Assembly: GCA_003707065.3 (NCBI GenBank)
Contig: PPXM03000015.1
Span: forward strand, 22,976 to 86,975
Source of the DNA: Trigonopsis variabilis
Taxonomy: Eukaryota; Ascomycota; Trigonopsidomycetes; Trigonopsidales; Trigonopsidaceae
Length of the DNA stretch: 64,000 nucleotides
Direction: 5' to 3'
Part shown: positions 15,093 to 53,851 of the stretch, piece after piece
Position numbering within the stretch: the first letter of the stretch is position 1
Layout: each line of letters opens with the position of its first letter
The notes under the pieces: generated by a model
Seen by the model: the letters and a program-made list of their open reading frames with translations, nothing else
Database searches by the model: none
Told to the model about the DNA's origin: nothing
Position numbers and translations under genes: made by a program

Positions 15093-15319
15093 TTGTTATT
15101 GTAAATAGCTTAGCAAATGTGCTACAGGAGGTGGTGTGATTAAATCAGCCACAAGAACCAAGCATGATTTTTTTTTACGGTGTTGTGCTACAAGCACAAT
15201 GCTGCTAAGGACAACAGTGATCGGTCATTATGGTATAAAGAACGAGAATGTAATTGATCCTGAAAACACTAACGGATCTTAGCTTGATCAGGTGACAGCT
15301 ACCCAGATGCTTCAACCAC

Positions 15320-17241
15320 TAGAAATTTCTTTTAAGATGGCTGTGTCCAATATATCAAGTATAGCTTTGTATACTCTATCGTTGGTATCCTTGTCTGGCT
15401 GGTGCTCAAACTCTCGTGTCACAACTTGAGCCCAATCGAGGATCACTGGCTCAAACTGACAAAAACATTCCCTGAAAGGATATGGCGAATAAGCTTCTTC
15501 GAGATGTTTGGGTAACTGGCAAACGCTGGAACCTGATAGCTGGGCCAGACTTGCTACAAGTGTACCTTCATCTCAGGCATCTCTGACAAAAGTCGAGGTA
15601 ACAGCTTATCGGATTTTTCGTCGTCAACCTTGACAGGCTTGCTATCTCTAAGTTCAAAACCTGAGACAAGCCATAGAAAAGCAAACAAAAAATGATTCCA
15701 TTTCCGACAACACAGGATATTCGCCTTCACCTAATACGAAGTGGGAAATAAAAGGCACTGTTCCATAGATCCGGGATGCGTGTCTAAACGATGATCGCCT
15801 AACAGCGTTATCAAGGTCATCAGAGTCCCTCTTTCCGTCATGAGATCATAAAGAATGTTTGCGAGACTAATGTCCCTATGTAGAAAGCCAATGCGGAAAA
15901 GATTCCTGTGGCCTTCTGGTTCGAGTTAAGCCTGTTTGTATGCTTATCTTTAACCGCGTCACGGAATGCCACCAAGATGTCCGCTACGTTTCTGGCAGAC
16001 ATCAAGACAGGCTCACCGGCGTACTTCGTCAAAAACCTTTCTGTCACCCATATCGACGGAGGCTTTTCAGCACCATTATTGGTGAATTTTCCTCCATGGT
16101 GGATATTACCTGGAGTCACATTATAGCCCCTCAAATTAGCGAGTGTACTGTCTGGCCTCCTCGGCATCAATTCCACTAAATGAGGAACGTTGCTGCGGAT
16201 CTTTTTTCTCATGATTTCTTTCAAGATCGTCCCTTCCGAGTAACGATCAGACAAGACCCAGCTATCTTTAACGATGAAGGTCCTTTTTTGCTCGTCGCGA
16301 GTCTCATAAACAGCATTACCGCGGCCAAAGCAGTCTTTAGACACCTTGAGAATCTTTACGGTTTCGACGGTAAGGGAATCAACGTGGCAGGAAGGCTCCA
16401 TAACCAAGTCATCTCGGATCCCTAGGCTGGATATGTCGCTAAGCTAAGCTGGATGGCGAACAGTGTCTTTATCAGGTCCTCTGTTTGTCCGAATGTCAAA
16501 TGTCGTGAAGGCATATATGCCAGATCTATCGAGCACGAAACATGAAGCATCGGTACTCGTCAGGCAAATGAAGAAGACATAGCTGCGCCTTTTATCGCAG
16601 TTGAAAACTTGAGTAGCCACTTCAGCAGCCTGTTCGAGAGCAGGCTCCTTTAGTGAACGCCGTTCCAGTTCAAAAATCACCAAAGGATCTTTCACTTGCA
16701 AGAGATCTGACGAAATACCGTCCAAAGGAATCACTGCCAAATCAAGCTCCCGCTGCCCAAATGGGCCACTTAGCCTTGCTCTTCTCTGGAGCCAGTATAA
16801 TGTTCCAGTATTTCTCGCCACTAGCGTCCATAAGCTGGGGTTAATAGCTGGGGTTATATTGGCTGCAGTTGTTTCATCAGGTTTTTCACATCAAAGATTG
16901 TTCTGATAGAACGTTGTTCAAGACAGTGGAGTCGACTCTAGGAGCGGCGGAGTTTTCATGAGGATGCAGTGTGCACAGAAATTCAGCAAACGAGCAACCA
17001 AACTTATAGGCTGTGCCAACAATGACATGTTTAAAGGCTTTGCGAGAATCACTGGCCTCGATAGTAGAGCTGACAGTTTTGTCGACAAGATCCCTTGTGA
17101 CACCCATAATATGGCGTTGTTGGTTGGGAGTGTAAGATGGTACCGCAGAATGCGGATTGGTCCTTGTAAAATGAAAATGAAAGCGTGTGAATTATAGTGG
17201 TTCATATCATGCTTTTTTGAACCACTGTCTGATGCGGACAT
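15320..17241 (-). pseudogene. Decayed FunK1-family protein kinase
   Basis: Fragments of a FunK1 kinase follow one another in the right order but in different frames and with stops: MGVTRDLVDKTVSSTIEA... (16886-17107), a middle block ELDLAVIPLDGISS... (16444-16821), the N-lobe RTFIVKDSWVLSDRYSEGTI (15838-16407), then LHRDISLANILYDL, a frameshift, DDLDNAV and YPVLSEMESFFVC. The intron that should precede the catalytic loop has lost its donor: AAAG|ATAAG replaces the GTAAG at the same place in the intact copy at 50.2-52.0 kb, while its TTAAC branch and CAG acceptor remain. At least three frame changes are needed, so the gene is dead. The two copies align along their length but are strongly diverged, so they are old paralogues. 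Confidence 0.82.
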
Positions 17242-17455
17242 GACTTGAAACGAAGAAGCGGGCGCGCCCTTATTGTGAAGCTATGCGGCTGCAATGTAGC
17301 CAGATTTATTCTGATAGTGATATTCTTATGATTTCATTTGCTCGTAAGTGCCTCAGTTCAGATTGCTACATTTGTCCAGTCGCTCTCTACTCGACCATCG
17401 CTATTCGTAGCAACGAAGTGACCTTGCTTGGCCGGTCAGTCCCATCGATTCGAGG

Positions 17456-48718: not shown

Positions 48719-49030
48719 GGCACAGTTACAAATACTCGTATATCAATTATGATGTACTCTATCGTTAACGCTGGTTCTTGAACGTGTCATATCGAGAGGC
48801 ATATAATACGTAGATTTCCGTGTATCTTGAGTTAGAATTGTTTTCAATCTGTACTTCACAGTGTGCAACTTTTCCATTGTCCTGATGGAGACTTTGGAAC
48901 TCTTTGATCCAACCAGGCGTAGCAATGCTAGTGATCGCCCTCGAACTGAGAAATGTATTGAAAAGTAACAAAGTTGGGCCAGAAACATACGTCACCATAG
49001 GGATATCACTGAGATGTATCAGTGAAATGT
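48719..49030. repeat. Direct repeat copy A flanking the FunK1 kinase
   Basis: Begins GGCACAGTTACAAATACTCG and aligns without gaps to copy B (52071 on) for the first 50 bp with four mismatches, then with lower identity, about 75 percent over blocks such as TGCAACTTTT...TTGATCCAACCA. On the minus strand copy A keeps an open frame (48765-49052) whose end reads like a real protein C-terminus (ITSIATPGWIKEFQSLHQDN, then NSRYTEIYVLYASRYDTF); in copy B that frame is broken. A third, weaker match lies near 53080-53160. Confidence 0.6.
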
Positions 49031-49539
49031 TGCTTATTCTTCTCATCTTCATCCGTCCAAAGGTAACCCACGCTTACATAGCCGAACCTTATTGTAAACA
49101 TGTATCAAGTGTCTCTTTTACAGTTAGTTATTCACGGCTGTCATCAGCTTGTCTCACAGCAACAATGCAAACAAGAGAGGCACGCGGCGTCGAAAGTGCT
49201 AATAGTGTTGACTAATGTATACTAATGGCAAGGGGCCGACGCGCGATCGTCAAGGCTGACTAGCTTTGGTCTTGAACGATAAAGGCTGAAACAGATTGAA
49301 ACAATGTATGATACGATGGCATGTGAGAGCCTAAGGAAGCAAAGTCAGGGACAAGGCAAAGACTCTGAGAATAAAGACAAGTAAGACATTCACCGTCATT
49401 GTGTAGCAAATCTTCGAGACCGGTCATGGGAGCATCAAAAGTGGTTCTTTGTGTTCTGATGCAGGTCATAGTGGCATCAATATCGTACGAAAGATGAATA
49501 TAAAGCCGCCTGCTTTAGCCTGATTCAAGTATATTCAAA

Positions 49540-49902
49540 ATGCAATCTTTCCAAGAACCATCTTCAGATGATTCTGCAATTAATGACCATGATGAACAGA
49601 CAAGTAAGATCACAACAACACTATTCACAGATTGCTAATGTGCAGACCTGTTAAGGCACTTATCAAAGTGCCTTTCAAAAAAACTAATAGAACAAGAACG
49701 TGCCCTTCTTGGGGCGTCAAACTCGTCTGTCAATACCTTCACCTCAGCCCGGGCTTTGCTAGTCATAGACTGCGTCCGCGACCGGGAAGAAAAGTTTTGC
49801 ATCTCTAGCAGTAGAGAAAGCCAGAAATGCTTTCCTAGAGATGGCACTCTAGAAGCATCTAGAGGCTCTCTGAGCCCTTCTGTTTTAACTGAGATTAATT
49901 GA
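49540..49902 (+). CDS. Small two-exon gene that enters the inverted repeat
   Basis: ATG at 49540 with a TATA-like ATATAAAG about 40 bp upstream. Exon 1 (49540-49603) encodes MQSFQEPSSDDSAINDHDEQ; a 42-nt GTAAG...GTGCAG intron (49604-49645) leads to exon 2, which begins NLLRHLSKCLSKKLIEQER inside the left repeat arm and then crosses into the 322-bp spacer, ending with TGA at 49900-49902 (106 residues). The part in the spacer (ASNSSVNTFTSARALLVIDC...) looks less protein-like than the opposite-strand reading of the same DNA, so the original gene may have had the spacer the other way round. No family recognised. Confidence 0.4.
49607..49716 (+). repeat. Left arm of a 110-bp inverted repeat
   Basis: Matches the reverse complement of 50039-50148 at 104 of 110 positions with no gaps. 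Both arms cover part of an intron and the start of a coding exon; four of the six differences are in the coding part and change K to E, A to V and L to F. Each arm contains a perfect 9-bp palindrome, AAGGCACTT-ATCA-AAGTGCCTT. Confidence 0.92.
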
Positions 49903-50148
49903 TCTTGCCCGAAAGCTTCTACTTACGTAGATTAATGGCGGCCTCCGTGGCAGCCCCCTCAGTGACTGCCACCCTGGAAAAGATGCCAGCAATAGCCATT
50001 TTAACCACCGTTTCCGGCTCGAGCTGATTTTCAAAGAGCGCCCCAAGAAAGACACGTTCTTGTTCTATGAGCTCTTTTGAAAGGCACTTTGATAAGTGCC
50101 TTAACAGGTCTGCACATTAGCAATCTGTGAATAGTGCTGTTGTGATCT
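49717..50148 (-). pseudogene. Headless coding exons on the minus strand of the spacer and right arm
   Basis: Read leftward from the right arm, the same exon start appears (LLRHLSKCLSKELIEQER) and continues as a convincing sequence, FLGALFENQLEPETVVKM then AIAGIFSRVAVTEGAATEAA, up to a GTAAGT donor near 49926. A further frame to the left (49635-49847) contains MTSKARAEVKVLTDEF. There is no first exon on this side, because the sequence to the right is the start of the FunK1 gene. It would become a complete gene if the spacer were inverted relative to exon 1 at 49540. Function unknown. Confidence 0.45.
50039..50148 (-). repeat. Right arm of the 110-bp inverted repeat
   Basis: Reverse-complement partner of the left arm, separated from it by 322 bp and ending 66 bp before the FunK1 ATG. 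Confidence 0.92.
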
Positions 50149-50214
50149 GCATCAGGCGAGGCCAAAAAGGCCTTACATTCGGGGCAACAAGAGGCCCACG
50201 ATAATTCCGTCAGA

Positions 50215-52006
50215 ATGTCTGCTGGCGAAACCAGCACAAACGCGGGCTCTCTTGCATTTAGGCAGACCGTTAACCTTACAAGACCCACTGTCCGAATGCT
50301 GATGGTGGGGCACCGATATAGGATTGATGAATCACTGTGGGCCTTTCTCCTAAAAGAACTTGGTCCTGATCGCAGCAACAGCATCCTTTCTGTTGATCAG
50401 GATGCTATCAAGCAGGAACTTGCGCCCCAAAAAACGCTTCCAGAGAAACCGCCTGAGAAAACGGTACGCGAGTATCTGCAACAGATTTGGACGTCTGCAT
50501 CCAACGCCAGTCCCCGCAATCCAGATATTCAGATGGTATCCAGTACGGTAGTATCAATTAACCACGGTCGTCGAGAAGTTGACTTTGGCGTCAAGATCGC
50601 GAAGGAGAATGGCAAAGATGCTACTAAACACCCTCTGTCGGATCTTGTACTCATCCTTGAGTTCAAACAAAACGAAAAAGCAGAGGTTGCTGAGATCGCT
50701 CTGGAGCAGGTGGTCGAGTTAGCCATGCAAGTCCTTGACCATGATCTCTCCCGTTTTTTCGTCTTAGCGGGCCGAATCAATGGCTGGAAGATGATGCCTC
50801 TTATGGTGGATAGAACCGGAATTTTCAACTTCTCTGAGGTTGATATAGCAAGAAACCCCTTTGATTTGTGGCGTATTTTTAGGTCAATACAATTGTCAAC
50901 ACTAGAGAATCTCGGCGTGATGATGAAGTGGTCGTTTCGTCCTCCTCAGATGGTGGGTGCGGTGTGGGTGATGGATGCAAAGTTAGTCTGCCAAAGAGCT
51001 CTCGAATTCCAGCTGAGTAGGACTGTATTCCAAGGATCGGACGCTTCTGGGCGAACCGTTTTCATAAAGGACCACTGGGTCCGAATTGACAGACCCTCCG
51101 AAGGTGAAATCTTAGAGGCCATCCAGATTCATCAGCCGTCTACCTATCTTCCTAGGCTTCTGACCATCGATCGACAAGAACGAACCACGACGCGAGCAAA
51201 TCTTCGCGGTTTGCTCATAAAGAAAGCTGTAGTTTACGCTGGTGGATTGTATAACATTGGCGCCCTTGACCTACCACCCGAGCTCCAACGGGAGCGCATT
51301 GTCACAGCTTGGGCGGGAGACCCTCTCCTCACGTCAGTATCTAATGTCCGAGACATGGTGACTGCTTTAAGAGACAGCATCATTGGTAAGAAAACGACAT
51401 TACTCTCTTGTCTAACATATAGGTCACCTTCATCTTTTTAAATTTGGTGTCTTACATCGAGATGTGAGTTTAGCGAATATTGTGTTCGATCCTCAGTTGA
51501 AAAGAGGAAGCCTGATTGACCTTGGGAATGCGGTCTTTTATAACACCACTCGGATGGGAGGTACTATTCTTGGAACGAGACTATTCATGTCACGTGAGGT
51601 CCTTTTAAAGGAAACCTACTCCGTTCTAAGTGAGCTTGAATCCTTTTTTTTTGTGCTAGTCTGGCTGGTCTATGGTCATGATTTTCACGATGGGAAATTG
51701 AAAGAGCTCAAGGATGATGATGAGGGCCGTAATTGGGCTTTTAAAAAGCTCTCCAGCAAAGAGTACGATGTAAAACTTAACCTAATCTTGCGCCTTATGT
51801 CTTCTCCCCCTGAGGGAATTATTGATCAAGCAAAACCCCTACGGCCATCTTTTGTGGGACTTCAATGTGTGATTAACAAATGGGCTGATCTTCTCATCAA
51901 ATATTCTGAACCTAGTGATATGCTGAACTGCTCTGATGAGCAGCTCTATGAAATGGTTCTTGGCTTGCTCGATGATTTCTTGACCTCTTCAGCTTCCGAA
52001 GAGTAA
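50215..52006 (+). CDS. FunK1-family protein kinase
   Basis: Two exons, 50215-51385 and 51423-52006, around a 37-nt intron with a CTAAC branch, give 584 residues. About 240 residues of poorly conserved N-terminal domain (LILEFKQNEKAEVAEIALEQ is typical of FunK1) precede the kinase lobes. The N-lobe has RTVFIKDHWVRIDRPSEGEI with the presumed ATP lysine; splicing yields GHLHLFKFGVLHRDVSLANI with catalytic Asp at about 404, then SLIDLGNAV (metal Asp about 423) in place of DFG, and YSVLSELESFFFVLVWLVYG. FunK1 kinases are fungal-specific, often multicopy, and their substrates are unknown. An in-frame open stretch precedes the ATG back to a TGA at 50143, so an alternative 5' exon is possible. All motifs are intact. 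Confidence 0.85.
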
Positions 52007-52070: not shown

Positions 52071-52330
52071 GGCACAGTTACAAATGCTCTTATATCACTT
52101 ATGATGTATTCTATCGTTAAAGACGATGATGGCACGTTTCAGATCGACAGGTAAATAAAACGTAGAGGAGTTTTATTAAGTTGGATTTTATCTACAAGCT
52201 GTACCTAATATCTGCAACTTTTACTTTGTCTTGATGGAAACTTTGTAACCGCCTTAATCCAACCAGAAGTTGTAATACGATTGATCGTTCTAGTACAGTG
52301 AGATTCACTAAGGATCTCTGGTTGAAGTGA
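52071..52330. repeat. Direct repeat copy B, just downstream of FunK1
   Basis: Begins GGCACAGTTACAAATGCTCT, 65 bp after the kinase stop. Same orientation as copy A 3.35 kb upstream; the minus-strand frame kept in A is interrupted here, so B is the more decayed copy. Confidence 0.6.
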
Positions 52331-53851
52331 TTACCAGGGGAATCTTCACCCTTTCAAACCTGAAACATGTCTGAGGCAAGAACAGAGTCACGTCGCCAAT
52401 GAGAGATTGAGAGTCTTTACAGGCCAAGGCAGAGCATTCATTGGTTGGGAATAGTAAATGAAGCGAAAAAATTTTGAACGAGCCAGCACTAGTATATTAT
52501 TCACAAAGTGACGACATATCTGGCGATTTGAGCGACCGCTGATTCTCTCGCTTAGCGGCGTCCACCAGTGGCACCCACACGATGCCGCATTGGGTTTTGT
52601 TGTGTTTGTAATGACTCTTTAAGACAAAGGGAATCCCGTACTCAGCAAGAAGACGTGTTCACCAATGAAGCTCTATTACAAATATATTTTATTTCAGTGA
52701 GTGTAGATAATCATCTGTTCACCTTTTCAAATGACAGACCCAGACCGCTCAACAGAGGAGCGAAATCCATATTGTTGGAAGTAACATGCTGGGTCAGAAG
52801 TGTTTTAAAAGAACGCCGCCGAAGCCTTTGATTTTCGGGGACGCGAGATGACCATCTCCTCCTGACGTGTATTCACAAGCTTATATAAGACTCGGCAATG
52901 ACTTGAGAGCTACTGACAACAGAACTAGTCTAGAGCAATCAAATCAAGAATTCCATTATTCGGATAAGTTTGGCTACATACTTGACCTAGCCAGAAGCCA
53001 ACAGGTCTGTCATCGTCGCAGGTGTAGTCGCATGGCCTCGCGCTCTTTGTTTCAAGCCATCTTCGCACTAGACAATGGTCCAGAAAAGTATCGTATTATA
53101 AATGTTTTCAGAACATAGATCAGAAAACCATGTCACGATAGGACATCATTGAAGTGTCTCAATAAATCCTACTGAGGTAAGATATTGTCCACAACCTTTG
53201 AATGTAGATGATAATAAAATCACCTGAAAACCACTTGGCCATGTAGGGAAACACAAAGAGTACATAACTAGGGCTACTGGAAGGAGTTCCATGATTAGAA
53301 CAAGTCTGACAAGAATTATTCATCTTCAACGGGCAAAAACTCACCATAACTTGGTAAAGGTATATAATATTATTGACATCAAGACACTTTTAATTGGCCT
53401 CTAAAGGGCCAGGACGTTGTGTTGAACGTTTTTAGAAACGATATTGAGTCGAAGAAAAAGGATAAAAGCTCGGGGATAAGCTGATGTCTAGGTGAACCTT
53501 GGTTATTAAAATCTGTATTTTTTCCACTTGCCTGGAATCGCTCTTGTCGGGTGTAATATATGCGAGGTATTTTTCGAAATCATTCCTTATAGCGGTAGCG
53601 TACATTTAATAATTTGTTGATGTTCAGATAGTTAATATATGAAACGAGAATTATTATCATAGGGAAGTTAGGATGATGGAAATATAAACTTCGAAGACTA
53701 TACAAAGGTAACATGTAGGGCAGTTATTTTTAGTGTAAGCCTGCCTGCTACTGCTCCGGCTCGTTGGCAATCTCTTCTAAGAGCTGCTGATGTCTACGAG
53801 ACCATGCATGTTATGCCATTGTATGGCCCATTTGGTTGCAGCTGTTGCATC
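52331..53851. other. Accessory-island DNA without an intact gene
   Basis: AT-rich sequence with only short frames. Around 53080-53160 there is a weak further match to repeat copy A (a run like TCA-TGATGTCCTATCGTGACAT). Nothing else was recognised. Confidence 0.4.

Follow-up and report, generated by a model that had tools for sequence, protein, structure and literature searches.

Whether an inverted repeat that appears to split one gene across both strands can act as a DNA switch is the question raised by a short locus in the genome of Trigonopsis variabilis. In a sequence-only reading of the 64-kb stretch of DNA analyzed in this study (64,000 nucleotides in total, referred to as the window), it was proposed that recombination between the two arms of the repeat flips the enclosed spacer and swaps two alternative C-termini behind a shared protein start, or else that one fixed rearrangement has broken a gene. 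The analyses described here favor, with roughly even confidence, an old event in which an inverted-repeat unit was inserted, or arose by inverted duplication, at the start of a FunK1 fungal protein kinase gene, most likely within the first intron of this gene. Such a unit is ordinary in kind, and what makes it interesting is its location.

The repeat itself, described earlier as two ungapped 110-bp inverted arms with six mismatches enclosing a 322-bp spacer, was confirmed by the repeat finder as well as by blastn (E 4e-43; Table 1). Both arms are 110 nt long and share 94.5% identity, the mismatches being located at positions 49618, 49681, 49683, 49686, 49703, and 49705. One of them falls into the intron part and five into the exon part of the arm, and three of these five alter the encoded residue. 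No recent homogenization of the arms is indicated, because they are 5.5% diverged. Among the inverted pairs of at least 40 nt with arms lying within 5 kb of each other, the pair 49607-49716/50039-50148 was the only one reported by the repeat finder in the window. Further copies of the arms were not found in the window, and exact arm patterns yielded no matches in viral contigs and prokaryote genome contigs. A search of the region 49400-50300 against Rfam at a relaxed threshold resulted in two matches scoring 18.6 and 19.2 bits, compared to cut-offs of 91 and 90, respectively. Each arm also contains a 9-bp hairpin (49653-49674 and 50081-50102), which reads AAGGCACTT-ATCA-AAGTGCCTT on the left-arm strand.

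Some amplification methods are known to yield inverted chimeras, and an assembly or amplification artefact was considered on these grounds. However, six mismatches within 110 nt appear to be many for a fresh chimera, which makes this explanation extremely improbable. Chance or artefact as the source of the repeat was rejected, given that the inverted pair was detected by the repeat finder and that its arms differ at six positions.

Table 1. Features of the inverted-repeat locus and of the FunK1 stretches in the window.
Feature	Position	Strand	Length, motif or basis
Left arm	49607-49716	+	Repeat finder, blastn
Right arm, inverted copy	50039-50148	-	Repeat finder, blastn
Spacer between the arms	49717-50038		322 nt
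TATAAA box	49499-49504	+	Exact motif, 35 nt before the exon-1 ATG; plausible position, inferred function
Exon 1, proposed first exon of FunK1	49540-49603	+	ATG, 21 codons plus 1 nt, phase 1
Proposed intron	49604-50155	+	552 nt, GTAAG..CATCAG, encloses the entire inverted repeat
Proposed start of FunK1 exon 2	50156-50214	+	Open in the FunK1 frame, before ATG 50215
Alternative intron	49604-49645	+	42 nt, ends inside the left arm; GTAAG, branch-like CTAAT, TGCAG
Coding-like stretch (LFENQLEPETVVKM...)	49928-50038	-	Joined to the right arm; codon score 0.170
Intron-like gap	49889-49926	-	38 nt, GTAAG..CTCAG; frame kept on removal
Second open stretch, in frame past the 38-nt gap	49717-49886	-	Codon score 0.013
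FunK1 fungal protein kinase ORF	50215-52006	+	PF17667 on both ORF parts
Second FunK1 gene, degenerate (copy 2)	about 15200-17300	-	PF17667 matches at 15.8-16.9 kb
Apparent third FunK1 5' remnant	52900-53110	+	ATG and short ORF; homologous to the copy-2 5' region

Overlooked in the sequence-only reading were the FunK1 open reading frame (ORF) that begins at 50215, only 66 nt past the right arm, and the in-frame acceptor at 50154-50155. The ORF contains a 37-nt intron (51386-51422) and resembles other FunK1 genes in that both of its parts match the Pfam profile Pkinase_fungal (PF17667), with E-values of 5.6e-16 and 4.5e-18 and scores of 58.7 and 65.6 bits against a curated cut-off of 24.1. The second ORF part produced three pattern stretches in viral contigs, none of which was confirmed, and the available excerpt of PMC2838846 does not mention FunK1. 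Coatomer epsilon, amidase, GCV_T, PS decarboxylase, NOB1, HAT_KAT11, and EF-1 beta were among the matches when ten proteins of the window were compared with Pfam, a gene content that marks the DNA as eukaryotic, while the PF17667 matches at 50.2-52.0 kb and 15.8-16.9 kb mark it as fungal. The kinase can also start at its own ATG, in which case it comprises 584 aa. Its frame is open upstream as far as 50146, and a splice from exon 1 to 50156 is in frame and encodes a kinase of 625 residues in either orientation of the spacer. Within the proposed 552-nt intron, the arm ends are located 3 nt from the donor end and 7 nt from the acceptor end. A CTRAY branch motif was not found in the 60 nt that precede 50155, and the acceptor at this position could be a chance occurrence, because YAG is present in 20.5% of 10-nt windows.

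The presence of a first exon with a promoter-like box outside the left arm, as claimed earlier, holds true (TATAAA at 49499, ATG at 49540, and donor GTAAG at 49604). The whole window contains 40 occurrences of TATAAA, both strands combined, compared to 26.9 expected from shuffled sequences, and none of 100 shuffles contained as many. The codon score of exon 1 was 0.132, and 3.3% of the wrong-frame controls and 2.6% of the inter-ORF controls equaled or exceeded this value, while 6.6% and 5.9% of the respective controls scored as high as the stretch 50158-50214 at the beginning of the proposed second exon (0.096).

To which gene exon 1 belongs can be assessed by means of two further FunK1 stretches in the window. 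Copy 2 is degenerate, its reading frame being interrupted by a stop codon at 16444-16446 and broken near 16888, and its 5' region aligned to the 52.9-53.1 kb stretch with a score of 86, which none of 300 shuffles reached. The exon-1 peptide aligned to the 5' end of copy 2 over 16 residues, eight of them identical (SFQEPSSDDSAINDHD / SFQVMSASDSGSKKHD). The corresponding score of 37, the best of three frames, was attained by 2 out of 4523 stop-free 21-residue peptides from the window and by none of 2000 shuffles in a post hoc test, the likeness having first been spotted by eye. The same match was not significant in tblastn (E 0.11). At the DNA level, 11 of 300 shuffles aligned as well, with the top match (49411-49447) lying outside exon 1, and a second alignment was likewise not significant (108 of 500 shuffles as high). 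Similarity between exon 1 and the 53-kb stretch remained at chance level (score 17, reached by 3963 of the 4523 controls), and the left arm showed no significant similarity to the part of copy 2 that follows its exon-1-like end (32 of 500 shuffles as high). Copy 2 and the 53-kb stretch are devoid of the arms, because no further arms were detected in the window; the FunK1 gene at 50215 differs from copy 2 by the inverted repeat at its 5' end. Taken together, the peptide match, the 5' conservation, and the codon scores moderately favor the view that exon 1 belongs with the kinase. One copy of a direct repeat of 75% identity (48719-48937) lies about 600 nt before exon 1 and the other (52071-52287) some 65 nt past the stop codon of FunK1; the two are perhaps the remains of tandem FunK1 units.

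Splicing of exon 1 into the left arm, as assumed in the sequence-only reading, is possible. The motifs GTAAG, CTAAT, and TGCAG are in place, whereas the exon that follows scores poorly as coding sequence, and exon 1 is more probably that of FunK1. When spliced to the left-arm acceptor, exon 1 encodes a 106-aa product that stops short of the kinase. As many as 27% of wrong-frame controls reached the codon score of the whole left-arm exon, which ranks within the lowest 0.8% of coding stretches; its arm part ranks within the lowest 1.4%. For the plus-strand 85-aa reading, Pfam returned one sub-threshold match (Pput2613-deam, E 0.082, 13.2 bits vs. a cut-off of 25), and the predicted fold had a mean pLDDT of 58.1. 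Automatic intron collection in the window provided 14 candidates, and the 8 that remained after filtering by length did not suffice for building a splice-site profile.

On the minus strand, a continuation attached to the right arm and equipped with its own donor (49926) does exist. Its first stretch, comprising 37 codons at 49928-50038, was the most coding-like among the eight stretches scored, with 1.0% of the wrong-frame and likewise 1.0% of the inter-ORF controls scoring as high. The second stretch is weakly coding-like (10% and 15% of the respective controls as high), and the arm part exhibits non-coding codon use irrespective of the arm from which it is read. The first part of the peptide, 61 aa including the arm, is predicted to be helical on its own with a mean pLDDT of 74.3, and the best Foldseek match to this model had an E-value of 3.2. 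Neither the peptide nor three versions of it, searched at E-values up to 10 with filters that drop most weak matches, hit a Pfam family. In collections of viral contigs and prokaryote genome contigs, which contain no fungi, 63 and 238 pattern stretches were obtained, respectively, and none was confirmed. The only PDB matches of the peptide encoded by 49928-50110 were two yeast Scc1 chains (E 0.09 and 0.22), and this likeness was treated as chance, because Pfam at E-values up to 10 listed no family. Homology searches for the minus-strand C-terminus therefore provided nothing firm in Pfam, PDB, viral or prokaryote contigs. The continuation, previously called convincing, is so with regard to its codon use, but lacks a firm homologue; it is plausibly a captured or broken gene fragment.

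Among the alternatives to be weighed, a small gene made up of exon 1 together with the left arm and the minus-strand sequence may have been disrupted by an inversion or inverted duplication that became fixed, with FunK1 being independent from 50215 onwards. This explanation is consistent with the strongly coding-like codon use of the continuation, with two introns of 42 nt and 38 nt that carry good motifs and are similar in size to the 37-nt FunK1 intron, and with the higher pLDDT of the helical 61-aa part as compared to the plus-strand 85-aa reading. Moreover, if the spacer is reversed, exon 1, the left arm, and both minus-strand stretches read through to give 166 aa. However, the minus-strand peptide has neither a Pfam match nor a confirmed relative in the non-fungal collections, the PDB and Foldseek results are weak, the arm part is non-coding in its codon use, and exon 1 bears a likeness to FunK1 copy 2. 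A broken gene is accordingly rated as rather unlikely, although it ranks ahead of the remaining alternatives. In one of these, folding of the intronic repeat in the pre-mRNA would render the left-arm acceptor inaccessible, and exon 1 would be spliced alternatively to the kinase (625 aa) and to the 106-aa dead end, a switch at the RNA rather than the DNA level. The transcribed region 49540-50214 is predicted to form a very stable fold (-298.6 kcal/mol, z -21.7 relative to 20 shuffles), in which the left acceptor is fully paired along with its branch motif (unpaired probability 0.00) and the donor is half free (0.51), and both products are in frame. Against this, the distal acceptor is mostly paired too (0.07) and has no branch motif, and the short exon scores poorly as coding. 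Since the hairpin also buries most of the right acceptor, hairpin-gated splice choice is regarded as a lead and considered unlikely.

The DNA switch yielding two proteins was not supported, since the arms are only 110 nt long and 5.5% diverged and a flip would be silent for the FunK1 product, provided that exon 1 is part of the kinase gene. In its favor, the arms are real and inverted, and splicing of exon 1 to either continuation is possible in principle: the left-arm splice results in 106 aa in the present orientation, and in 84 aa, or 166 aa after removal of the 38-nt gap, in the flipped one, and none of these products reaches the kinase. Divergence is also no absolute bar to arm recombination, as, according to the available part of PMC10164571, inverted-repeat instability in long single-stranded DNA of yeast is suppressed solely by heterology above 25%. 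Fungal flip-flop loci resemble the region 49607-50148 in that inverted repeats flank a unique segment. In the excerpts available for these loci, the repeats measure 4.2 kb on Saccharomyces chromosome XIV, where they are almost identical, gene conversion keeps them alike, both orientations occur, and one gene pair is 97.9% identical (PMC9731477), and 2 kb and upwards at yeast MAT loci, with 2 kb in Ascoidea rubescens (PMC6692504). The arms described here, in contrast to these kilobase-long repeats, measure 110 nt at 94.5% identity, are known from one sequence, and are not near-identical and homogenized as in flip-flop segments, differing at six positions. An invertible segment is hence very improbable. 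More generally, an inverted repeat viewed without its neighboring gene can mimic a protein-swapping DNA switch.

The preferred explanation, an old insertion or inverted duplication at the FunK1 5' end, would involve a single event, in which either a non-autonomous element bounded by 110-bp terminal inverted repeats (TIRs) was inserted or an inverted duplication arose by template switching. The resulting unit of about 542 bp (49607-50148) would most likely fill the first intron of FunK1 and may have brought along a piece of another gene. Transcription would begin close to the TATA box (49499), the first 21 kinase residues would be encoded by exon 1, and the hairpin-forming intron would be spliced out from 49604 to 50155. 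Non-autonomous TIR DNA transposons include MITE, foldback, and Pack-type elements. The unit is similar to TIR DNA transposons with respect to its length, its 110-bp terminal inverted repeats, and the coding-like fragment within, but differs from them by having neither a target-site duplication (TSD) nor a second copy in the window. In the search for a TSD, which covered exact words of up to 5 nt and allowed one mismatch at 6 to 12 nt, the sequences at the arm ends (25 nt on the outer and 8 nt on the inner side of each) shared no word longer than 4 nt. The transposon version is weakened, because no TSD was found, and a TIR transposon and a template-switch inverted duplication fit equally well as the putative origin of the unit.

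Introners, i.e., introns derived from transposable elements, offer a further comparison. As stated in the accessible portion of PMC9860276, TIRs are present and TSDs absent in one introner family, while TIRs or TSDs were reported to be absent from ascomycete introners. The unit at 49607-50148 is nearly coterminal with the proposed intron and shares the combination of TIRs without TSDs with that one family; it differs in carrying TIRs in an ascomycete and in that its intron status is predicted. A mobile TIR unit with a captured coding-like fragment could even serve as the first intron of the kinase, its hairpin deciding between the kinase and the dead-end product. This combination is very improbable, but, if true, it would represent a fungal introner that possesses TIRs and takes on a regulatory function, unlike the ascomycete introners described as TIR-less in the available text of PMC9860276. 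If the unit is a spliced intron, it would constitute a clear single case of inserted or inverted DNA turning into an intron within a family of fungal kinases.
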